64,000 nt of DNA from NCBI RefSeq assembly GCF_002907375.1, contig NZ_MIYK01000010.1:124001-188000 (forward strand). Reading direction: 5' to 3'. Shown piece after piece: positions 43,599 through 59,139 of the stretch. The translations under genes and the position numbers were made by a program. This DNA comes from Fructilactobacillus lindneri DSM 20690 = JCM 11027. GTDB lineage: Bacteria; Bacillota; Bacilli; Lactobacillales; Lactobacillaceae. Numbering within the stretch: position 1 is the stretch's first letter; each line of letters opens with the position of its first letter. The notes beneath the pieces are model-generated. The model was not told where the DNA came from. It did no database searches and saw only the letters and a program-made list of their open reading frames with translations.

Positions 43599-43640
43599 AA
43601 GAGTTAATTGACTAGTAAAATCAAAAAATGGGTGGATGAA

Positions 43641-44857
43641 ATGTTGTTAATTAAACAAGTACATATCGAAAATAATGTAACTAAAAAGGATATTTTAGTT
43701 GCAGATGGTAAAATCAAAGCAATTTCTGAACATATTGATGAAAAACAGGCCGATGATGTCTTAGATTTGGATGGCAAATTGGTTATTCCACCATTTGTTG
43801 ATTCGCATGTACATTTAGATTCTACATTGACGGCTGGAGAACCAGAATGGAATGAATCTGGTACTTTATTTGATGGAATTAACATTTGGTCTAAAAGAAA
43901 GCAAATGCTGACGCAAGCAGATGTTAAAAATCGTGCCATTAAAACTTTGAAAAAGCAGGCAAGTCATGGAATTCAGTTTGTTAGAAGTCACGTGGATGTG
44001 ACTGATCCGACTTTTACAGCTCTAAAAGCTTTACTAGAAGTACGAGCAGAAGTTGCTGATTTTATTGATTTACAGTTAGTTGCTTTTCCTCAAGAGGGAA
44101 TTTTATCTTTTCCAAATGGTAAAGAGTTAATGGAAGAAGCAGCTAAAATGGGTGTGGATGCAATTATTACGGTCGTGATTCTTTAACTTTTTTAATGAAT
44201 CTGGCAAAAAAATATAATAAATTAGTCGATGTTCATTGTGATGAAATAGATGATCCAAATGCACGTAATTTAGAAGTTTTGGCTACCTTGGCATATGAAT
44301 CAGGAATGAAAGATAAAGTAACTGCTAGTCATACCGTGTCGTTAGCTAGTGTTAATGATGCCTATGCGTACAAATTAATGCGGTTGCTAGAAATGTCTCA
44401 GATTAACATGGTAGCTAATCCATTAGTTAACATGCACTTAGGCGGTCGCTTTGATACTTATCCGAAACGACGCGGCTTAACTCGAGTAAAAGAATTATTA
44501 GAAAACCACGTTAATGTTTCCTTTGGTGAAGATGATGTGAAAGATCCGTGGTATCCAATGGGAAATGGTAACATGCTGGATGTATTATATGTTGGTATTT
44601 TAGCAAGCGGATTAATGGGATATCATCAAATTTTAGACTCTTATCAACTGATTGGGGCTAATGGGGCTAAAACGCTGCATGTGAATGATAAATACGGAAT
44701 TGAAGTGGGAAAACCAGCTAGTTTTTTGGTGTTTGATACCGATAATTTCTATAATGAATTAAATGAACGTAAAACAATGTTATATTCCATTAAAGATGGA
44801 AAAGTACTAGTTAAAAACCATCCAGAAATGGCTGAAACTCATTTAAAATTAAAGTAA
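43641..44857 (+). pseudogene. codA: Cytosine deaminase, broken by an internal deletion
   Basis: Two open frames, 43641-44186 and 44195-44857, together encode an amidohydrolase of the CodA type. Iron ligands sit in both halves: VDSHVHLDS in the first, DVHCDEIDD, ASHTVS and SFGEDDVKDPWYP in the second. At about 44163-44180 the family expects GADAIGGIPHYEY and onward, but the reading runs from VDAI straight to a frame beginning YGRDSLTF, so about 20 bases seem missing, and the first frame stops. Enzyme activity, deaminating cytosine to uracil, is therefore expected to be lost. The start ATG is at 43641, after GGGTGG. Confidence 0.85.
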
Positions 44858-49829: not shown

Positions 49830-50273
49830 ATGGCTGTAATGAATGCAAAAGAAATTATGGATTTAATTCCAAATCGTTACCCAATATTGTTTATTGACCG
49901 GGTTGACGAAATGGAACCAGGCAAGTCAATTGTGGCTACTAAAAATGTCACAATCAATGAAGAATATTTCCAAGGGCATTTTCCTGGAAATCCAGTTATG
50001 CCTGGCGTTTTGATTATTGAATCAATGGCTCAAGTAGCATCTATCTTAATTTTGAGTTCACCAGAATTTGAAAACAAAACCGCATACTTAGGCAGCATTA
50101 AGAATGCTAAGTTTAGAAAAATGGTTGAACCAGGTGATGTTTTAACATTTAAGGTAACAATGGACAAAATTAGAGATCATGCTGGTTTGGTTTCATGTGT
50201 GGCTTATGTTGGTGATGAAAAAGCTTGTGAAACTAAATTAACGTTTATCGTTGATGAAAAAGAAAGAAAATAA
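49830..50273 (+). CDS. fabZ: 3-hydroxyacyl-ACP dehydratase, FabZ
   Basis: A 147-residue hot-dog-fold dehydratase removing water from 3-hydroxyacyl-ACP during elongation. IPNRYPILFIDRV is the opening, GHFPGNPVMPGVLIIESMAQ contains the catalytic His and Glu, and TKNVTINEEYFQ and KNAKFRKMVEPGDVL are typical. The start is the ATG at 49830; a GTG at 49821 lies inside the AGGAG site and longer starts lack one. It is the first gene of the fab/acc cluster. Confidence 0.95.
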   Translation: MAVMNAKEIMDLIPNRYPILFIDRVDEMEPGKSIVATKNVTINEEYFQGHFPGNPVMPGVLIIESMAQVASILILSSPEFENKTAYLGSIKNAKFRKMVEPGDVLTFKVTMDKIRDHAGLVSCVAYVGDEKACETKLTFIVDEKERK

Positions 50274-50276
50274 AAA

Positions 50277-51251
50277 ATGGGTAGTTTTGCGATTAAAGCG
50301 GTTGCTAAATCCGTTCCGCAAAAAATTGTTACGAATGATGATTTAACTAAAGTACTCGATACTTCTGATGAATGGATCAAGCGGCGCACCGGAATTTCAC
50401 AACGACATATTGCAGTAAATGAAAGTAATACTGAGATGGGTGTCAAAGTTGCCAACCAATTGCTTGAAAAATCCGGGATAGATGCTGATGAATTAAATTT
50501 TATTATTGTGGCTACTATGTCTTCTGATTACCAAACACCATCCACAGCTGCTAGTATTCAGGGAATAATTGGCGCACAAAATGCGATGGCCTTTGATATT
50601 AATGCTGCCTGTTCTGGGTTTGTTTATGGGTCAACGGTGTTGAATGCTTTGCTAGCTGGGAATCCTGGTGGTAAAGGGATTATTATCGGTGAAGAAAAAC
50701 TGAGCAAGTTAGTTGATTGGCATGATCGTTCAACGGCAGTTCTTTTTGGTGATGGAGCCGCGGGGATGCTAGTTGAAAATGATGGAAGTTCTTCGCAGAT
50801 TTTAGCGGAAGATTTAAAAACCTATGGTCAATTAGGTTCATCGTTAACAGCGGGACATTTTCCAGAAGACACGCCCTTTGGAAGCAATGAAAAACAAGTG
50901 TCCCAGTATTTTAAAATGGACGGACATTTAGTTTATAATTTTGCGACCACTAAAGCACCAGCTTCGATTCAGAGGGCTCTTGATCAAGCAGGATTACAAG
51001 CGGATCAAATTAAATTTTTTGTAATGCATCAAGCTAATGAAAGAATTGTGAAACGGGTGGCAAAAAAGTTATCATTATCAATGGATAAGTTTCCATTGAA
51101 TATTAGCGATTATGGAAATACCGCTGCGGCTAGCGAGCCGTTACTATTAAGCGAACTAGTAGACAAAGGAAAAATCAAACGCGGCGATTATCTGGCTTTA
51201 ACTGGTTTTGGCGGTGGATTAACCGTTGGGACTATGATTATTAGATATTAA
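50277..51251 (+). CDS. fabH: 3-oxoacyl-ACP synthase III
   Basis: A 324-residue initiating ketosynthase condensing acetyl-CoA with malonyl-ACP. NAACSGF has the catalytic Cys (about 113), MHQANERI the His (about 249) and ISDYGNTAAASEP the Asn (about 280). TSDEWIKRRTGISQRH is the standard N-terminal motif. It begins 3 bases after fabZ, with the position usually filled by the MarR-type regulator fabT vacant. Confidence 0.95.
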   Translation: MGSFAIKAVAKSVPQKIVTNDDLTKVLDTSDEWIKRRTGISQRHIAVNESNTEMGVKVANQLLEKSGIDADELNFIIVATMSSDYQTPSTAASIQGIIGAQNAMAFDINAACSGFVYGSTVLNALLAGNPGGKGIIIGEEKLSKLVDWHDRSTAVLFGDGAAGMLVENDGSSSQILAEDLKTYGQLGSSLTAGHFPEDTPFGSNEKQVSQYFKMDGHLVYNFATTKAPASIQRALDQAGLQADQIKFFVMHQANERIVKRVAKKLSLSMDKFPLNISDYGNTAAASEPLLLSELVDKGKIKRGDYLALTGFGGGLTVGTMIIRY

Positions 51252-51280: not shown

Positions 51281-51535
51281 ATGACTGAAAATAACCAAAC
51301 TGAAATTTTAAATAAGATTAAGGAAATTGTTGCTGATCAAACTGATGACGTTAACGTTGATGATATTAAAATGGATACCAATCTTAAAGACGGTTTGGAT
51401 CTAGATAGTTTAGACATTTTTGAAATTATTGATGCACTTGAAGATGAATATGATATCGAAGTTGATAGCGACGAAGGCATTGAAACGGTTCAACAATTAG
51501 TTGAATATGTTCAAAACAAAGTTAACGAAAAATAA
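51281..51535 (+). CDS. acpP: Acyl carrier protein of the fab cluster
   Basis: An 84-residue acidic carrier; LDLDSLDIFEIIDALEDEYD includes the Ser for phosphopantetheine. It is closely related to the ACP at 41254. It lies between fabH and fabD, the standard order, and shuttles growing chains among the FabZ, FabH, FabF, FabG and FabI enzymes encoded around it. AGGAGA precedes the ATG. Confidence 0.93.
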   Translation: MTENNQTEILNKIKEIVADQTDDVNVDDIKMDTNLKDGLDLDSLDIFEIIDALEDEYDIEVDSDEGIETVQQLVEYVQNKVNEK

Positions 51536-51554: not shown

Positions 51555-52469
51555 ATGGCAAAAATAGGTTATTTATTTAGCGGTCAGGGAAGTCAGTTTC
51601 CAGGAATGGGATCTGACTTATATCAAGCAGAGCCTAAATACCAACAAGTAATTGACACTGCCTCAGAAGTTTTAAATATTGATTTAAGCGATTTATCAGT
51701 AATAGACGATCCGAATAACGTACAAGTTGCAATTTTAGCAATGAGTTATGGGATTTACCAAACGATTGTTGATGATTTTCCAATGGCACAGGGAATGATT
51801 GGACTTAGTTTGGGCGAATATAGCGCCTTAACTGCTAGTCAATCTTTAGACTTTTCACAAGGAATTTCTTTAGTACATGATCGTTCTCACTATATGGACG
51901 AAGCTGGGCAACAAAATCCAGGTGCGATGGCTGCAGTATTAAAAATTAATCCCCAAAAAGTGATTGAGATTTGTAATGAAGTTACAGGGGCTTATCCAGC
52001 TAATTTTAATACAACTGCTCAAACAGTTATTGGCGGCACTAAATCAGGCGTTAAAACAGCTAGTGAAGAATTAAAAGCTGCTGGTGCCAAACGCGTTGTA
52101 CCTTTAAAAGTGGCAGTTGCTTCGCACACTCCACTGATGCAACCGGCTAGTGATCAGCTTGCTAAAAGATTACAAACAGTTGAGTTTAATAATCCGGTGG
52201 TTCCAGTGATTAGTAATACCACCACTAAACCGTTTACGGCTGCCAATGTTAAAGCAACTTTACGTGATCAATTGATTAAACCAACTCATTTTAGTGCTGA
52301 TTTAGAAGAATTAAGAAAATTAAAAGGTTTTGACACCTTAATTGAGATTGGACCGGGCGAAACATTGAGTCGGTTTGCTAAAAAGACCCTTCAAGGAATT
52401 AAAACTTATCATATTGATAGTGTTGCGTCTTTACAGCAGGTTCGAGAAGAGCTGAAAACGGAGGATTAA
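51555..52469 (+). CDS. fabD: Malonyl-CoA:ACP transacylase
   Basis: A 304-residue transacylase loading malonyl onto ACP. LFSGQGSQFPGMG opens the fold, IGLSLGEYSALTA has the nucleophilic Ser (about 86) in GLSLGE, and VASHTPLMQPA has the catalytic His (about 194). LIEIGPGETLSRF is the usual C-terminal motif. The stop overlaps the next ATG region, so it is coupled with fabG. Confidence 0.95.
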   Translation: MAKIGYLFSGQGSQFPGMGSDLYQAEPKYQQVIDTASEVLNIDLSDLSVIDDPNNVQVAILAMSYGIYQTIVDDFPMAQGMIGLSLGEYSALTASQSLDFSQGISLVHDRSHYMDEAGQQNPGAMAAVLKINPQKVIEICNEVTGAYPANFNTTAQTVIGGTKSGVKTASEELKAAGAKRVVPLKVAVASHTPLMQPASDQLAKRLQTVEFNNPVVPVISNTTTKPFTAANVKATLRDQLIKPTHFSADLEELRKLKGFDTLIEIGPGETLSRFAKKTLQGIKTYHIDSVASLQQVREELKTED

Positions 52470-52472
52470 TGA

Positions 52473-53210
52473 ATGACAGAAGATAAAAAAATTGTATTAG
52501 TAACTGGCGGAACCAAAGGAATTGGATTAGCAACTTCACAACGGCTTGCCAGAGATGCTTCTAATCAAGTCGTAATTAATTCACATCGTGAGTTAGCAGA
52601 TGACGAAAAGGAAGCCTTATTAGCATCATTTGCCAATCCGGTCGAAGTTGTGACTGGTGATGTCTCAAAGGAAGAAGATGCCAAACGCATGATTGATGAT
52701 TTGGTATCTGAATATGGTCATATCGATGTGTTAGTTAACAATGCCGGTATGACACAAGATAAATTAATGACACGGATGACTGAAACATCTTTCAAAGACG
52801 TTTTAAATACCAATTTGGTAGGGACATTTAACATGTCTAAATATGCTTTGAAAGCAATGCAGAAAAAACGTTTTGGAGTCATTATTAACATGTCAAGTAT
52901 TGCTGGAATTCATGGAAATATGGGACAGGCAAACTACTCTGCCAGCAAAGCCGGTATTATTGGTTTGACGAAAACAACAGCTCAAGAGGGTTCATTACGT
53001 GGAGTTCGTTGCAATGCCATAGCTCCTGGAATGATTAAAACCGCAATGACTGATAAATTGAGTGATAAAATTATCAAGCAATGGACGGAACAAATTCCAT
53101 TACATCGTTTTGGTAATCCTGACAATATTGCTGAAACAGTTGAATTTTTGATTAAAAATGATTACATCACAGGGCAAGTAATTACAGTAGACGGTGGCCT
53201 TACAATGTAA
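52473..53210 (+). CDS. fabG: 3-oxoacyl-ACP reductase
   Basis: A 245-residue SDR enzyme reducing 3-oxoacyl-ACP with NADPH. VTGGTKGIGLATSQ is the cofactor loop, LVNNAGMTQDKL the Asn-Asn-Ala-Gly motif, and NMSSIAGIHGNMGQANYSAS with the following Lys gives the Ser-Tyr-Lys triad. ITGQVITVDGGLTM is the usual C-terminus. AGGAGG in the fabD tail supplies its ribosome-binding site. Confidence 0.95.
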   Translation: MTEDKKIVLVTGGTKGIGLATSQRLARDASNQVVINSHRELADDEKEALLASFANPVEVVTGDVSKEEDAKRMIDDLVSEYGHIDVLVNNAGMTQDKLMTRMTETSFKDVLNTNLVGTFNMSKYALKAMQKKRFGVIINMSSIAGIHGNMGQANYSASKAGIIGLTKTTAQEGSLRGVRCNAIAPGMIKTAMTDKLSDKIIKQWTEQIPLHRFGNPDNIAETVEFLIKNDYITGQVITVDGGLTM

Positions 53211-53240
53211 GGTCCTGTTTTCTGAAGGAGGAAGCAATAA

Positions 53241-54482
53241 TTGAGTAATAGAGTTGTAGTAACAGGTATGGGAGCAGTATCTCCAGTTGGAAACGACGCT
53301 GATGAATTTGTAAAAAATATTTTAGATTCTAAGGTAGGGGTCGCTCCTATCACTGATTTTGATGCTTCAGATACAGGAATTACAGTTGCAGCTGAAGTGA
53401 AAGATTTTGATCCAGGCAAACGGTTAACTAAACGTGATTATAAACGGTTAGATAAATATGCACAGTATGCTTTGTACACGGCTAAGGAAGCTATGGAACA
53501 AGCTGGATTAAAAGATGGCGAAAATTACCAGCCAGAAGATTTAGGTGTGATCTACGGTACAGGAATTGGTGGTATTCAAACTATTCAGGAACAAACTGAA
53601 AAAGCTTATACCAAAGGTCCTAAACGTGTTTCACCTTTATTTGTGCCCAAATCAATTTCTAACATGGCAGCTGGGAATGTTTCAATGTATTTTGATGCAA
53701 GAAACACGTCTCAAACAATTGTTAATGCTTGTGCTTCAGGTACCAATGCCATTGGGAATGCTTATGAATATATCAAAGCTGGCAAAGCCAAAGTAATGAT
53801 TGCTGGAGGAACAGAAGCAGCCGTAACCAAAATGGGAATTGCTGGCTTCGCTTCATTAACTGCACTTTCAACTGCTACAGATCCTAAAGATGCTTCATTG
53901 CCATTTGACAAAGATCGTAATGGTTTTGTAATGGGTGACGGTGCTGGAACCTTAATTCTTGAAGATTATGATCATGCCAAGGCTCGTGGTGCCAAAATTT
54001 TGGCAGAAGTAGTTGGTTATGGAACTACCAGTGATGCCTATCATTTAACTGCTCCTGATCCAGAAGGAAAAGGTGCGATTGCAGCAATGAAACAAGCAAT
54101 TGATGAAGGTGGAATCAAACCTGAAGAACTAGATTATGTAAATGCGCATGGAACTGCTACTCACGCAAATGATGTGTCAGAAGCAGGAGCTATTGGGAAA
54201 TTATTTAAAGATAATGATCACCTTAAAACAAGTTCAATTAAAGGAATGATCGGTCATTCACTTGGAGCTGCTGGTGGCCTAGAAGCAGTTGCCGTAGTTG
54301 GAGCACTTGAAAATGACCAAATGCCCGTTAATGTTGGAATGAAAAATAAGGATCCAGAAATTAAAATTGATTTAGTTAATGATCAAAATAAAAATGATTC
54401 AATTAAGACGGCAATTAGTAATTCATTTGGATTTGGTGGTCATAATGCAGTGATTGCATTAAGAAAGTGGGAAGAAAACTAA
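53241..54482 (+). CDS. fabF: 3-oxoacyl-ACP synthase II
   Basis: A 413-residue elongating ketosynthase. NACASGTNAIGNAYE holds the catalytic Cys (about 164), NAHGTATHAND and IGHSLGAAGG the two His (about 304 and 340). The start codon is TTG at 53241, 8 bases after AGGAGG. Its stop interlocks with the accB start (TAATG). Without fabB, it is the only elongation synthase here. Confidence 0.95.
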   Translation: MSNRVVVTGMGAVSPVGNDADEFVKNILDSKVGVAPITDFDASDTGITVAAEVKDFDPGKRLTKRDYKRLDKYAQYALYTAKEAMEQAGLKDGENYQPEDLGVIYGTGIGGIQTIQEQTEKAYTKGPKRVSPLFVPKSISNMAAGNVSMYFDARNTSQTIVNACASGTNAIGNAYEYIKAGKAKVMIAGGTEAAVTKMGIAGFASLTALSTATDPKDASLPFDKDRNGFVMGDGAGTLILEDYDHAKARGAKILAEVVGYGTTSDAYHLTAPDPEGKGAIAAMKQAIDEGGIKPEELDYVNAHGTATHANDVSEAGAIGKLFKDNDHLKTSSIKGMIGHSLGAAGGLEAVAVVGALENDQMPVNVGMKNKDPEIKIDLVNDQNKNDSIKTAISNSFGFGGHNAVIALRKWEEN

Positions 54483-54910
54483 TGAATGAAGCAGACATTG
54501 AACGTTTACTGAGTAAATTCGATAATTCTGGGTTACAGGAATTAAAAATTAATGGTAATGGCGTTGACGTCTATTTCAGTAAATTAGAAGATAAACAGCC
54601 TACTACTGTCACACAAAATAATAAGAAATCGACTACCAGTAACGAATGGCAACCATCTGTTAAAACTGGCAATTATAAATTAAAAGCACCAATGGTAGGA
54701 TTGATTTATTTTGCCCCTAGTCCTGACAAACCAGCTTATAAAGAAGTTGGTAGTCACGTTAAAAAGGGTGAAGTAATTTGTGCGGTTGAAGCAATGAAAT
54801 TAATTAATGAAGTCAAAAGTCCTGTTAGTGGTACGATTAAAAAACGATTGGTAGATGATGGTGACATGATTGAATACAATCAGCCATTATTTGAAATCAA
54901 GGAGGATTAA
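54482..54910 (+). CDS. accB: Biotin carboxyl carrier protein of acetyl-CoA carboxylase
   Basis: A 142-residue BCCP. An N-terminal helix-loop region (residues 1-65) with a Thr/Asn-rich linker precedes the biotinyl domain, where ICAVEAMKLINEVKSP includes the biotinylated Lys. YFAPSPDKPAYKEVG has the thumb-region motif typical of bacterial AccB. The start is the ATG at 54482, overlapping the fabF stop by one base. The BirA gene at 59170 should attach biotin. Confidence 0.93.
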   Translation: MNEADIERLLSKFDNSGLQELKINGNGVDVYFSKLEDKQPTTVTQNNKKSTTSNEWQPSVKTGNYKLKAPMVGLIYFAPSPDKPAYKEVGSHVKKGEVICAVEAMKLINEVKSPVSGTIKKRLVDDGDMIEYNQPLFEIKED

Positions 54911-54911
54911 G

Positions 54912-55325
54912 ATGAGTTTTGATGTTAGCAAGTATATTCCTCAGCGTTATCCTTTTGAAATGATTGATAAGATTGTGGCAGTTCAACCAGCTAAATCAGC
55001 AGAATCTATCAAAAACGTCTCTATTAACGAATGGTTTTTTGCAAATGGTAATCAATTAACGTTACCGCATCCAATTATCATTGAATCATTGGCACAAACT
55101 GGAGTTGTAGCAATTTTGTCAATGCCTGAAAATGCTGGGAAAAATGTTTTTTTTGGTGGTATTAAGCGGGCCGAATTTCAAGATGAAATGCGTCCAGGTG
55201 ATGTGTTGCATTTAAAAGTTGAACTTACTAAATTAAAAAAGAATATCGGTGTTGGACATGGTGAAGTCGTTCGTGATGGTAAAGTGATTGTAGATGCCGA
55301 TTTGATGTTTGCAATTGAATCATAA
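54912..55325 (+). CDS. Second FabZ-like dehydratase lacking the catalytic GHFP motif
   Basis: A 137-residue hot-dog-fold protein related to FabZ (IPQRYPFEMIDKI, IKRAEFQDEMRPGDVL). The usual catalytic segment GHFPGNPVMPG is replaced by NEWFFANGNQLTLPHP, so the catalytic His is missing, while IIIESLAQ still holds the active-site Glu. The start is ATG at 54912, 6 bases after GGAGG. Position between accB and accC is standard for fabZ2. It may be inactive, use a shifted His (in LPHP), or form a mixed oligomer with FabZ. Confidence 0.85.
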   Translation: MSFDVSKYIPQRYPFEMIDKIVAVQPAKSAESIKNVSINEWFFANGNQLTLPHPIIIESLAQTGVVAILSMPENAGKNVFFGGIKRAEFQDEMRPGDVLHLKVELTKLKKNIGVGHGEVVRDGKVIVDADLMFAIES

Positions 55326-55337
55326 GGTGGGAAAAAG

Positions 55338-56708
55338 ATGAAAAAAGTATTGATTGCGAATCGTGGTGAAATTGCGGTTCAGACAATCAGAGCTCTTCAT
55401 GAATTAAACATGGAAGCAGTAGCGGTTTATTCTACTGCCGATGCAGATGGATTGTTTGTCAAAATGGCAGATGAAGCTATTTGTATTGGAAGCGGTCTGC
55501 CTACTGACTCTTATTTGAATATGGGTGCGGTACTTGATGCGGCAGTTCTGACAGGTTCTGATGCCATTTTTCCAGGTTATGGTTTTCTTTCGGAAAATAG
55601 TGATTTCGCTGAATTATGTAAAGAATATGGCCTTAAGTTTATTGGTCCAAGTGCTGAAGTGATTGATTTAATGGGAAACAAATCTAATGCGAAGGCTGCT
55701 ATGCAAAAACTTGGCGTTCCAACGATTCCTGGTTCTGATGGTTTTGTGAAAGACGTTGCCAGTGCTGTAAAAGTAGCTGAAAAAATCGGTTATCCAGTGA
55801 TGTTAAAAGCAGCAGCTGGTGGCGGAGGTAAAGGAATTCGTAAGGTTAACAATCAGTCTGAATTAAAAAAAGCATTTGTTGATACGAAGCGAGAAAGTAA
55901 ACTTTCATATGGTGATGATCGCCTTTATCTTGAAAAAGATCTTTCAGATGCCAAACATATTGAAATGCAGGCGATTGCAGATCAACAAGGTCATGTCGTT
56001 TTTTTCCCAGAACGAGACTGTTCTTTGCAAAGAAATCATCAAAAAATAATTGAAGAATCGCCATGCTCGGTGATTTCTCCAGCAGAGCGAGCTCATATGG
56101 GTGAAGTAGTGGTAAAAGCCATGAAAGGAATTCACTATGAAAATACCGGCACCTTTGAATTTTTAATGGATCGCGAGCATCGGTTTTATTTCATGGAAAT
56201 GAATACCAGACTCCAGGTTGAACATACGATTACTGAAGAAGTTGCAGGAGTAGAATTAATTAAAGCTATGATTATAGTGGCTGCTGGCAATAACTTACCT
56301 TTTACACAATTAGATTGTGGTGTAAAAGGATACGCCTTGGAATGTCGAATTAATGCTGAAGATCCTGCTAATAATTTTCAGCCAACTCCAGGAACAATTA
56401 AATCAGTTCATTTTCCTTTTGGAACTAAAGGGGTTCGAATTGATTCAGGGGTCGAAACTGGCAGTAAAATCTCACCATTTTATGATTCAATGATTGCTAA
56501 AATCATTGTTCACATGCCAACTAAAAAAACAGCAGTACAAAAGATGCTGCGTGCTTTAAAAGAATTTGAGATTAGTGGAGTAAAAACTAATCGTGAATTT
56601 TTAGTTGATCTTTTACAAGATAAACATTTTTTGGCAGGAGATTTTAATAATCGATATATCGAAGATGTTTTTTTAAAAGATTGGGTGAGTCAGCATGAAG
56701 AAAAATAA
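55338..56708 (+). CDS. accC: Biotin carboxylase subunit of acetyl-CoA carboxylase
   Basis: A 456-residue ATP-grasp enzyme carboxylating the biotin on AccB. VLIANRGEIAVQTIRA is the N-terminal motif, KAAAGGGGKGIRKV the glycine-rich ATP loop, and EMNTRLQVEHTITEEVAG the metal- and biotin-site segment; FPERDCSLQRNHQK gives the substrate Arg-rich region. Intact and of standard length. It overlaps accD by 14 bases. Confidence 0.95.
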   Translation: MKKVLIANRGEIAVQTIRALHELNMEAVAVYSTADADGLFVKMADEAICIGSGLPTDSYLNMGAVLDAAVLTGSDAIFPGYGFLSENSDFAELCKEYGLKFIGPSAEVIDLMGNKSNAKAAMQKLGVPTIPGSDGFVKDVASAVKVAEKIGYPVMLKAAAGGGGKGIRKVNNQSELKKAFVDTKRESKLSYGDDRLYLEKDLSDAKHIEMQAIADQQGHVVFFPERDCSLQRNHQKIIEESPCSVISPAERAHMGEVVVKAMKGIHYENTGTFEFLMDREHRFYFMEMNTRLQVEHTITEEVAGVELIKAMIIVAAGNNLPFTQLDCGVKGYALECRINAEDPANNFQPTPGTIKSVHFPFGTKGVRIDSGVETGSKISPFYDSMIAKIIVHMPTKKTAVQKMLRALKEFEISGVKTNREFLVDLLQDKHFLAGDFNNRYIEDVFLKDWVSQHEEK

Positions 56709-57534
56709 AAGACAAAAATTAAGTTCGCAAGAGTTGCATAAACGGATGGATAAAGTTCCTGATGTGTGGGTTAAATGTCCTTTCTGTGGCAAAACAATTT
56801 ATAAAAAGCAATTAGGTAAATATCTTGAATGTCCAGATTGTCACTATGCTTTCCGAATTGGAGCAAAACAGCGAATTGAATTATTATGCGATAATTTTGA
56901 ACCATTTAATTTAGAGTTGAAAGCCAATCCTAAGTATCAAGATCCTAAATACCTTGCTAAATTAGAAAAAGCTCGGGAAACTACCGGATTAAATGAAGGA
57001 GTTTTGACGGGAATTGGTACCATTAATGGACATCGAACTGCTATTGGAGTAATGGACTGGCGGTTCATTATGGGCAGTTTAGGAACTGCAACTGGAGAAC
57101 TGCTAGCAAGACTTTTTGAACGGGCTACTCAAGAAAAATTACCAGTGATTGTTTTTACTGCGTCAGGAGGCGCCCGGATGCAGGAAGGAATTGAATCCTT
57201 AATGCAAATGGCCAAAGTTTCAGAAGCAGTTTCAGAGCATAGTAAGGCTGGATTAGTTTATATTAGTTATCTGTGTGATCCGACAACTGGTGGAGTTACT
57301 GCTAGTTTTGCGATGCAGGGAGATTTATTATTATCCGAACCGCATGCTTTGATTGGTTTTGCAGGACGACGAGTTATTGAAAGAACTATTCAACAAATTC
57401 CACCAAAGGATTTTCAACGGGCCGAAACATTGCTACATAACGGATTTTTGGATGCTATTGTTAAACGAAACGAAATGAAAACAACGTTAAGTCATATTTT
57501 AGCAATTCATGAAGGCGGTGATAAAAATGAGTAA
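56695..57534 (+). CDS. accD: Acetyl-CoA carboxylase carboxyltransferase beta subunit
   Basis: A 279-residue subunit transferring the carboxyl group to acetyl-CoA. The N-terminal zinc ribbon shows CPFCG and CPDCH, spaced 15 residues apart; the crotonase-like domain has FTASGGARMQEGIESLMQMAK and DPTTGGVTASFAMQGD for the oxyanion hole. The start overlaps accC, and its stop overlaps accA, so the three are co-translated. Confidence 0.94.
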   Translation: MKKNKRQKLSSQELHKRMDKVPDVWVKCPFCGKTIYKKQLGKYLECPDCHYAFRIGAKQRIELLCDNFEPFNLELKANPKYQDPKYLAKLEKARETTGLNEGVLTGIGTINGHRTAIGVMDWRFIMGSLGTATGELLARLFERATQEKLPVIVFTASGGARMQEGIESLMQMAKVSEAVSEHSKAGLVYISYLCDPTTGGVTASFAMQGDLLLSEPHALIGFAGRRVIERTIQQIPPKDFQRAETLLHNGFLDAIVKRNEMKTTLSHILAIHEGGDKNE

Positions 57535-58297
57535 AGATACTGCCTTTAATCGGGTTTTACAAGCTCGCTCAAAAGATAAGATTAGCATTAAAGCCCTGAT
57601 AGATGGAATTACTGATGATTTTATCGAATTACATGGTGATCGAGCTTATGGTGATGATCCAGCTGTATATGCTGGGATTGGTTCAATGAATGATAAACCA
57701 GTTACAATCGTAGGTATTCGAAAAGGTGACGATGACCAAACGGATGCCGAAGTACACTTTGGTTCTGCTGAACCTGATGGTTATCGTAAAGCTTTGCGTT
57801 TAATGAAGCAAGCTGAAAAATTCAAGCGTCCGATTATTACCTTAATTAATACTCCTGGTGCTTATCCGGATGTTGAAGCAGAATATCACGGACAGGGGTA
57901 TATGATTTCACAGTTAATTATGCAGGGAATGCAGTTAAAAGTTCCATATATTGCCGTGATTGTAGGAGAAGGCGGTAGTGGTGGTGCTTTAGCTTTGGCA
58001 GTTGGAGATTGCGTCTGGGCCTTTGAAGAAAGTATTTACTCCATTTTATCTCCAGAAGGTTATGCTACAATTCTTTGGAAAGATTCAAGCCGAGCTCGTG
58101 AAGCTGCCGAAGTAATGAAATTGACCCCAGAAGATTTAATTAAACAAGGGATTATTGACCGAATCATTCCTGAAATTAGAAATAATGATGAATTGAAACG
58201 GTTTAAAGCTGATTTATTTGGTAAAATAGAAGAGTTAAGTGCGATGCCGACTGCAGAAATGTTAAATCAACGTTTTGCACGTTATCGTAATTTTTAA
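57527..58297 (+). CDS. accA: Acetyl-CoA carboxylase carboxyltransferase alpha subunit
   Basis: A 256-residue crotonase-fold subunit. FIELHGDRAYGDDPAVYAGI, INTPGAYPDVEAEYHGQGY and VGEGGSGGALALAVGD are the family blocks for acyl-CoA binding. The start is the ATG at 57527, 8 bases before the accD stop; the upstream in-frame TTG-like start is not supported by a ribosome-binding site. It ends the acc run; a short hairpin region and fabI follow. Confidence 0.94.
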   Translation: MSKDTAFNRVLQARSKDKISIKALIDGITDDFIELHGDRAYGDDPAVYAGIGSMNDKPVTIVGIRKGDDDQTDAEVHFGSAEPDGYRKALRLMKQAEKFKRPIITLINTPGAYPDVEAEYHGQGYMISQLIMQGMQLKVPYIAVIVGEGGSGGALALAVGDCVWAFEESIYSILSPEGYATILWKDSSRAREAAEVMKLTPEDLIKQGIIDRIIPEIRNNDELKRFKADLFGKIEELSAMPTAEMLNQRFARYRNF

Positions 58298-58350: not shown

Positions 58351-58377
58351 ACATTTTAAATTGAGAGGATGATTAGT

Positions 58378-59139
58378 ATGGCTACTAATTTATTAAATGG
58401 AAAAAAGATTGTTGTCATGGGTGTTGCCAATAAAAAAAGTATTGCCTGGGGAGTAACCCGTGCAATTAATGAACTTGGCGGCGAAGTGATTTTAACTTAT
58501 CAAAATGAACGAATGAAGAAGAGTATTGAACGATTCGTGCCAGAAGATACTCCAATGTTTGAGTGTGATGTTGCAGAAGATAGTAATGTTGAAAAAACTT
58601 TTGCTGAAATTCATGATAAATTTGGTAATATTGATGGGGTAGTTCATGCAATTGCATATGCTGATCCAAAGACATTAAAAGGTGGAGTAATCAATACTAC
58701 TAAAGCTGGATATAATTTAGCCGAAGATGTTAGTGCCTATTCATTAATCTCAGTGACTCGTTATGCTAGCAAAATTATGAATAACCCAGGAAGTATCGTG
58801 ACACTCACATACATGGGATCTACATATGCAATTCCAAATTACAACATGATGGGAATTGCTAAAGCTTCGCTTGAATCAGCTATGCGTTACCTAGCAGTTG
58901 AATTAGGTGATATGGGGATTCGAATGAATGCTGTCTCAGCAGGGGCCGTTAGAACTCTTGCAGTTACTGGAGTTAAAGGACATGGTGATTTATTAAAGAC
59001 TTCAGAATCTTTGACTACTGATGGTAAAAGCGTAACTAAATTAGAAATCGGAAATGCAGTAAGTTTCTTATTAAGTGATTTAGCAAGCGGAATCACTGGT
59101 GATGTCGTTTACGTTGATAAAGGAGTTCATTTATTCTAG
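58378..59139 (+). CDS. fabI: Enoyl-ACP reductase, FabI type
   Basis: A 253-residue NADH-dependent reductase completing each elongation cycle. VMGVANKKSIAWGVTRA is the atypical SDR cofactor loop; AIAYADPKTLKGG and LTYMGSTYAIPNYNMMGIAK contain the Tyr (about 156) and Lys of the FabI Tyr-x6-Lys site; VSAGAVRTLAVTGV follows. The start is the ATG at 58378 after GAGAGGATG. The cluster thus uses FabI rather than FabK. Confidence 0.94.
   Translation: MATNLLNGKKIVVMGVANKKSIAWGVTRAINELGGEVILTYQNERMKKSIERFVPEDTPMFECDVAEDSNVEKTFAEIHDKFGNIDGVVHAIAYADPKTLKGGVINTTKAGYNLAEDVSAYSLISVTRYASKIMNNPGSIVTLTYMGSTYAIPNYNMMGIAKASLESAMRYLAVELGDMGIRMNAVSAGAVRTLAVTGVKGHGDLLKTSESLTTDGKSVTKLEIGNAVSFLLSDLASGITGDVVYVDKGVHLF

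Follow-up and report, generated by a model that had tools for sequence, protein, structure and literature searches.

In the window, the 64,000-nucleotide stretch of Fructilactobacillus lindneri DSM 20690 = JCM 11027 analysed here (contig NZ_MIYK01000010.1, positions 124,001 to 188,000), a fatty acid synthesis operon lies on the plus strand in the order fabZ1-fabH-acp-fabD-fabG-fabF-accB-fabZ2-accC-accD-accA-fabI. FabZ1 (49830..50273), assigned from its open frame, family profiles and tree position, is FabN-like and has intact GHFPGNPVMPG and IIESMAQ motifs, and its translation places the catalytic His at 49977..49979 and the catalytic Glu, still present in this genome, at 50019..50021. Downstream are fabH (50277..51251), the acyl carrier protein gene (51281..51535), fabD, fabG and fabF (51555..54482) and accB (54467..54910), the last directly upstream of FabZ2 (54912..55325; 137 amino acids), followed by accC, accD and accA (55338..58297) and fabI (58369..59139). 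FabZ2, a FabZ paralog without the catalytic His, was assigned from its open frame, family profiles, and structural model and fold, and the other genes from the operon order common to relatives. For Lactobacillaceae fab operons we refer to the FabN-like FabZ before fabH as slot A and to the FabZ2 position between accB and accC as slot B. A profile search of the 1.44 Mb genome detected PF07977 in only two proteins, FabZ1 and FabZ2, each encoded by this operon. FabZ1 ends at 50273 and fabH starts at 50277 with no gene between them; on a Pediococcus damnosus plasmid the two are separated by a MarR-family regulator gene, which has no counterpart there in the window. Elsewhere in the window, two adjacent plus-strand frames (43608-44186 and 44195-44857), which we take to be amidohydrolase halves, look like the halves of one gene that may be broken or frameshifted.

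A sequence-only reading of this DNA had described FabZ2 as lacking the catalytic His of GHFPGNPVMPG while keeping the dehydratase fold and the active-site Glu, and this description was borne out on each count. Residues 39-54 of FabZ2 (55026..55073, plus strand), translated and aligned to FabZ1, read NEWFFANGNQLTLPHP and contain no GHFPG loop; counted from NE to the catalytic Glu, FabZ2 has 20 residues and FabZ1 has 22. The Glu is retained as Glu58 (55083..55085, plus strand; Glu72 in alignment numbering), located by translation and alignments in the central helix within IIIE58SLAQ. The protein scored 62.8 bits against the FabA-like hot-dog profile PF07977 (cut-off 23), and fell under both NCBIfam FabZ equivalog cut-offs (109.9 vs 113 and 104.3 vs 155.15), which the neighbouring FabZ1 passed. 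A single-chain AlphaFold model built from a 26-sequence alignment gave a confident hot-dog fold (pLDDT 88.3), and the best 50 Foldseek matches of this model were FabZ entries, matches 1 and 16 being the two chains of the PDB integrative model 9a6k (YCSD-FABZ). No match to the MaoC/hydratase 2 domain PF01575 was found in FabZ2 at E up to 1 in the Pfam search, and a match to the FAS1-like dehydratase region PF13452 was weak (19.3 bits, under the cut-off of 22). The suggestion of the same reading that the catalytic His had moved is not supported, as the His of the PHP element is not conserved: among the 26 aligned sequences (window included) Arg predominates at that position (19), followed by His (4), Glu (2) and Lys (1). 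In other His-less copies the position is taken by Ser, Thr, Ala, Met, Gln or Asn, or the loop is shortened.

Occurrence of the FabZ Pair in Lactobacillaceae

A genome scan with peptide patterns of FabZ2 returned 69 named loci, all but one of them (an Aerococcus MAG) in named Lactobacillaceae genera, including Fructilactobacillus, Apilactobacillus, Lentilactobacillus, Pediococcus, Lactiplantibacillus (with L. plantarum, L085), Schleiferilactobacillus and Companilactobacillus; of the named relatives whose loci were read, Fructilactobacillus sanfranciscensis was the nearest. Slot B lacked the His in 70/70 of these loci and the window together, a count that shows breadth of occurrence and is not an unbiased rate, since patterns derived from FabZ2 itself select FabZ2-like genes. 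The slot A motif was intact in 66 of the 70 and, when read whole, in L084 as well, and the remaining slot A genes were either cut by a contig end (L059) or off the contig (L073, L096). Two apparent pairs without any His proved to be artefacts of the L059 cut and of a split at masked letters in L084. In Apilactobacillus and its near kin, slot A stands with fabF, downstream of fabI. The loss of the His from FabZ2 is more than chance and is a trait of many lactobacilli.

The survey was extended to 155 complete pairs, a non-random sample (70 loci from the FabZ2-specific scan, the rest picked by genus), in which the His was absent from slot B alone in 90, from slot A alone in 23, from neither slot in 42 and from both in 0. 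The first 135 pairs comprised 26 with both intact, 89 with a His-less slot B, 20 with a His-less slot A and 0 with both His-less; in the alignment of the 20 further pairs, picked from the list of matches to the g13 slot A protein, the corresponding counts were 16, 1, 3 and 0. Some genomes are counted twice in these figures (identical operons L062/L189, L090/L103 and L094/L173; L079 and L361 look the same), and L041, L042, L045, L046, L047, L052 and L092 count as separate pairs though they are near-identical short contigs. The rows dropped were the L059 slot A fragment and L251 and L253, which carry a different FabZ-like gene beside fabF, and 12 incomplete loci were set aside from the 135-pair count, among them G413, whose slots lie on different contigs (L254, L255) and both have His and Glu. 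The opposite polarity, a His-less slot A with an intact slot B, is exemplified by L106, L107, L110, L114, L116 and L117. In genus g23, the His is missing from slot B of L104 and L177, one of which has a shortened loop, and the 13 other pairs read keep both residues, and the single-FabZ loci L118, L257, L258 and L259 also have both. No His-less slot B was seen without a His-bearing slot A, contig ends aside (4 incomplete loci, and G050 with its slot A on another contig). As a class-wide baseline, the best 30 of 68 matches (L273-L302, from other families) had His and Glu intact by eye, although being the best-scoring matches they are skewed to typical FabZ. Redundancy by itself would already make His losses in the two slots mutually exclusive, and this pattern alone does not discriminate.

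Several further loci were observed in the course of the survey. The seven near-identical fab clusters on short contigs mentioned above come from different genera, and complete plasmids of beer and brewery origin, in Loigolactobacillus backii and Pediococcus damnosus, carry a gene of this kind; this cluster seems to travel between genera. The Lactobacillus kefiranofaciens contig of L039 is nearly identical to Lentilactobacillus loci, pointing to contamination or transfer. In the Aerococcus MAG (L091) the same operon, with slot A intact and slot B His-less, forms a long branch within Lactobacillaceae in the operon tree, and the contig could reflect transfer or misbinning. In two Lactobacillus genomes fabF is accompanied by an additional FabZ-like gene whose motif reads GHFKDFP (L251:1410-1841 and L253:3568-4011), apparently belonging to a separate pathway. 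The genome of G063, taken as Fructilactobacillus fructivorans, encodes a second intact FabZ1 on L267 (G063:C14), a contig of 7,987 bases that bears acc and fab genes and shows no FabZ between accB and accC; accA and accD are found at both ends of this contig, which may be a circle. Outside the family, among the weaker second copies from the class search, a His-less FabZ-like protein (SEWFFDQKSEKPAMPFMLVVESIAQ) with the Glu kept is encoded at L305:921-1397 (minus strand) in the Bacilli genome G503 of family f37, which also has an intact FabZ (L298).

Residue Conservation and Complementary Losses

Alignment columns were mapped to Helicobacter pylori numbering by spacing and motif. Glu72, Ala75 and Gln76 were kept in 96/96 distinct His-less sequences and make up three of only seven invariant columns, and in the same sequences the former His column varies (3.0 bits) and the loop around it is likewise free. 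Among the 151 distinct sequences of the His-bearing group, which is defined by presence of the His, P60, P63, P66 and G67 of the His loop were kept in 151/151 and the Glu in 146/151, the other 5 having Gln.

In five genomes of genus g37, taken to be Lactobacillus (G358, G441, G439, G465 and G423), slot A has the His with a fully kept His loop and Gln in place of the Glu, and slot B has the Glu and no His, and no single chain of the family holding both residues was found. In each of the five, exactly two proteins exceed the PF07977 cut-off, and a profile covering both kinds likewise finds two; a third PF07977 match in G358 is weak (E 0.19, 11.4 bits) and under the cut-off, and G441 is 59% complete, such that a third copy could be missing from its assembly. 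Since the PF07977 search can miss His-less copies, as it did in G063, the two-copy statement rests on several searches together. At position +4 from the lost Glu, the usual Gln is found in G358, G441 and G439 and a Glu in G465 and G423, so that a shifted carboxylate is possible in slot A of the latter two; Gln at the Glu position might itself retain some activity. The Glu-to-Gln replacement was found in one genus only, with 3 changes on the trees. A complementary dyad with neither chain complete is thus seen in 5 genomes of 155 pairs, and the FabZ1 of the window keeps both residues. A search for more Glu losses with the g13 slot A protein turned up four genomes of the g13 type, and the 20 further pairs contained no such loss. 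Neither the invariance of the Glu helix in His-less copies nor the five Glu-to-Gln genomes would be expected from redundancy alone.

Erosion was also seen around the catalytic residues. In H. pylori FabZ, His58 and Glu72' of the other subunit are described in one tunnel, and Ile20, His23, Phe83 and Phe101 surround an inhibitor near Glu72 (PMC2692856); in FabA the residues of each site are likewise supplied by different subunits (PMC2698920). Part of the tunnel lining is formed by the N-terminal Tyr-Pro loop (PMC2698920). The slot A proteins of the g37 group (12 distinct sequences: L190, L191, L240, L242-L249 and L252, with L189, L250, L254 and L256 outside the group) include those of the five Glu-to-Gln genomes, and a His-less partner was seen for 11/12; they keep the His loop in 12/12 and R24, Y25, Y94 and G96 each in 0/12, and have lost the Glu in 5. 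The three g13 slot A sequences keep the His loop and the Glu in 3/3 and Y25, P26, Y94 and G96 in 0/3. Among the His-less copies, P22 is kept in 96/96, R24 in 94/96 and P26 in 96/96, and Y94 in just 13/76 of the slot B sequences (mostly Phe by eye). Of the other distinct slot A sequences paired with a His-less copy (n = 59), 57-59 keep every Glu-side residue scored; of the slot B sequences whose slot A is His-less (n = 20), 18-20 keep all but one. The erosion of the Glu side is thus confined to two lineages, the g37 group and g13. Ahead of PGD, all 151 His-bearing copies have a basic segment (net +1 or more), as do 18/76 His-less slot B copies (mean -0.21); in His-less slot A the segment is mostly kept, though weaker (17/20 net +1 or more, mean +1.1). 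Our guess is that this segment docks ACP. In one genome, G462, a slot A with an eroded Glu side (Glu kept) occurs with no slot B and no accC; since the pathway seems to be lost there, it says nothing for or against a shared site.

A Proposed Composite Active Site

Given that FabZ sites pair the His of one subunit with the Glu of the other, a mixed oligomer with one composite active site offers the best reading of these data. FabZ2 would be a half-site subunit whose partner in a hot-dog dimer is the FabN-like FabZ1, encoded in the same operon. As a FabZ dimer has two sites, each with a His from one chain and a Glu from the other, the site of the mixed dimer made of the FabZ1 His and the FabZ2 Glu would work, and the opposite site, without a His, would be dead. 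The dead half-sites would then have eroded, in FabZ2 at the His loop and the neighbouring basic segment, and in the partner, in two lineages, at the Glu-side tunnel motifs and, in five genomes, at the Glu itself. We consider it likely that FabZ1 and FabZ2 form such an oligomer across the family, and hold this with somewhat less assurance for the genome of the window, because FabZ1 there still has both residues. Our confidence is lowered a little by the basic segment being largely retained in His-less slot A and by the restriction of Glu-side erosion to two lineages. The sequences themselves show the conservation, the complementary losses and the low dN/dS; we infer the mixed dimer itself, its activity, and that F. 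lindneri works like its relatives. The sequence-only reading had also raised an inactive partner of FabZ: the complementary losses agree with a partner, and its inactivity is not what they suggest, as FabZ2 is probably half-active, contributing the Glu side of the tunnel, the Glu itself included.

The counterpoint is that most lineages, including the window, keep both His and Glu in the His-bearing partner, and its homo-oligomer could therefore do all the work in most lineages. FabZ2 would then be a non-catalytic pseudoenzyme, serving as a structural or regulatory subunit or as an ACP-binding decoy, with all catalysis in the FabZ1 homodimer sites. This would agree with the 84 of the 89 pairs with a His-less slot B (window included) in which slot A has both residues, and usually the whole Glu side, but it leaves unexplained both the invariant Glu, Ala and Gln of the catalytic helix in all 96 His-less sequences and the other 5 pairs, whose slot A has Gln and no Glu at that place; we regard it as unlikely.

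We next consider the history of the pair, and then the alternative that FabZ2 is redundant and decaying and keeps its place through translation of the operon. Slot A proteins clustered with a FabZ-like gene adjoining fabF (4/5 near fabI) of Enterococcaceae-like genomes with a support of 99, which suggests that the pair is old, slot A being apparently of FabN type and slot B of FabZ type. On the operon tree the minimum number of His changes was 4 for slot B and 5 for slot A, and on the short FabZ gene trees, built without the motif columns, it was 1 and 2, respectively. Because the operon grouping was compatible with the AU tests (p 0.168 and 0.154), we estimate at least 3 (FabZ gene trees) and up to 9 (operon tree) independent His losses; the change counts are blind to direction, and loss was assumed because the His is the rule in FabZ. 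The single-FabZ Lactobacillus lineage (L118, L257-L259) nests in the operon tree among genomes with a His-less slot A, and the His-less copy thus seems to have been dispensable there, with slot A apparently dropped altogether. Median dN/dS values (NG86), from few usable pairs (3 to 26), were 0.059 and 0.08 for the His-less slot B of Lentilactobacillus and Apilactobacillus, 0.046 for the His-less slot A of several genera and 0.12 for three slot B copies of the G358 type, with 0.017, 0.065, 0.024 and 0.122 for the partners in the same order. The dropped slot A and the higher Lentilactobacillus value in slot B than in slot A would speak for decay, but no internal stop was present among the matches listed, dN/dS is far below 1, and FabZ2 is present over many genera with its catalytic helix selectively conserved, so that decay is quite improbable; a pseudogene was rejected on the low dN/dS and the residue conservation. 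The least credible alternative is that FabZ2 is an active dehydratase alone, with another residue, such as the Arg or His of the P-R/H-P element, replacing the catalytic His, for although P-R-P is common in the main clade, the replacement residue differs widely among His-less copies and a His-less slot B is seen together with a His-bearing slot A, contig ends aside as above.

Returning to the composite site, we would tentatively extend it to a broader scheme, which we consider possible and put well below the mixed oligomer in probability. The FabN-type and FabZ-type chains of lactobacilli may be an obligate mixed enzyme even where both keep His and Glu; the mixed dimer would have let either His, and then the opposite Glu, be lost repeatedly and in either direction, as in a ratchet, and the surviving tunnel, with one FabN-type and one FabZ-type wall, would set the balance of dehydration and isomerisation and hence of saturated and unsaturated fatty acids.

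Comparison With Known Dehydratases

FabZ2 resembles FabZ, the (3R)-hydroxyacyl-ACP dehydratase of type II fatty acid synthesis, in fold, Glu helix and operon position, and differs from it in having no catalytic His or GHFPG loop and in scoring under both NCBIfam FabZ cut-offs. The dehydratase domain of animal fatty acid synthase is a double hot-dog with one site, made of a His from one half and an Asp from the other; unlike in FabZ1/FabZ2, its halves are fused in one chain. With respect to FabN, the dehydratase/isomerase of Enterococcus that acts in place of FabA in E. faecalis (PMC10741038), slot A groups with the FabZ-like gene described above, which has both residues intact and which we infer from its neighbourhood to be FabN, family f3 being taken as Enterococcaceae. 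ApeI/ApeP, reported as a heterodimeric single-site dehydratase of aryl polyene synthesis (PMC8041823), is similar to FabZ1/FabZ2 in that two FabZ-like paralogs are encoded together, one of them short of a catalytic residue, but belongs to a secondary-metabolite pathway. The mycobacterial HadAB/HadBC enzymes are hot-dog heterodimers with one site kept and one lost (PMC4491049); both of their catalytic residues (Asp36, His41) are on HadB, whereas those of the proposed FabZ1/FabZ2 site would come from different chains, and they have the hydratase 2 motif, whose profile PF01575 FabZ2 does not match. In the YcsD-FabZ entry 9a6k, known here from its title alone, FabZ is modelled with a FabZ-like protein; no paper naming both YcsD and FabZ was found in the literature searched, nor were both named in one proteomics paper.

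Heterodimeric single-site dehydratases are therefore already known elsewhere (ApeI/ApeP, HadAB). A search of titles and the starts of abstracts, with subscription journals mostly outside it, found no paper describing, for lactobacilli, a FabZ2 that lacks the His or a complex of FabZ1 with FabZ2, and as far as we have seen, what is new is the occurrence in the primary type II fatty acid synthesis of Lactobacillaceae, the two polarities, and the genomes with half a dyad per chain. A hint on function in vivo comes from P. damnosus, whose chromosome is described as having no fabZ; strains carrying a plasmid-borne fab cluster grow in beer, whereas those brewery strains tested that lack the cluster depend on added fatty acids (PMC4814128). 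On plasmid pL21535-3 of P. damnosus TMW 2.1535, slot A is intact and slot B His-less, which is consistent with such a pair being enough and is silent on the need for FabZ2.

If the composite site is correct, the primary fatty acid dehydratase of many lactobacilli, L. plantarum included, would be a mixed enzyme with one site per dimer and not a FabZ homo-oligomer. The pairs would form a natural series from both sites intact to half a site per chain, allowing tests of how a symmetric homodimer becomes an obligate heterodimer, and deleting or assaying fabZ1 or fabZ2 singly in such bacteria may mislead.
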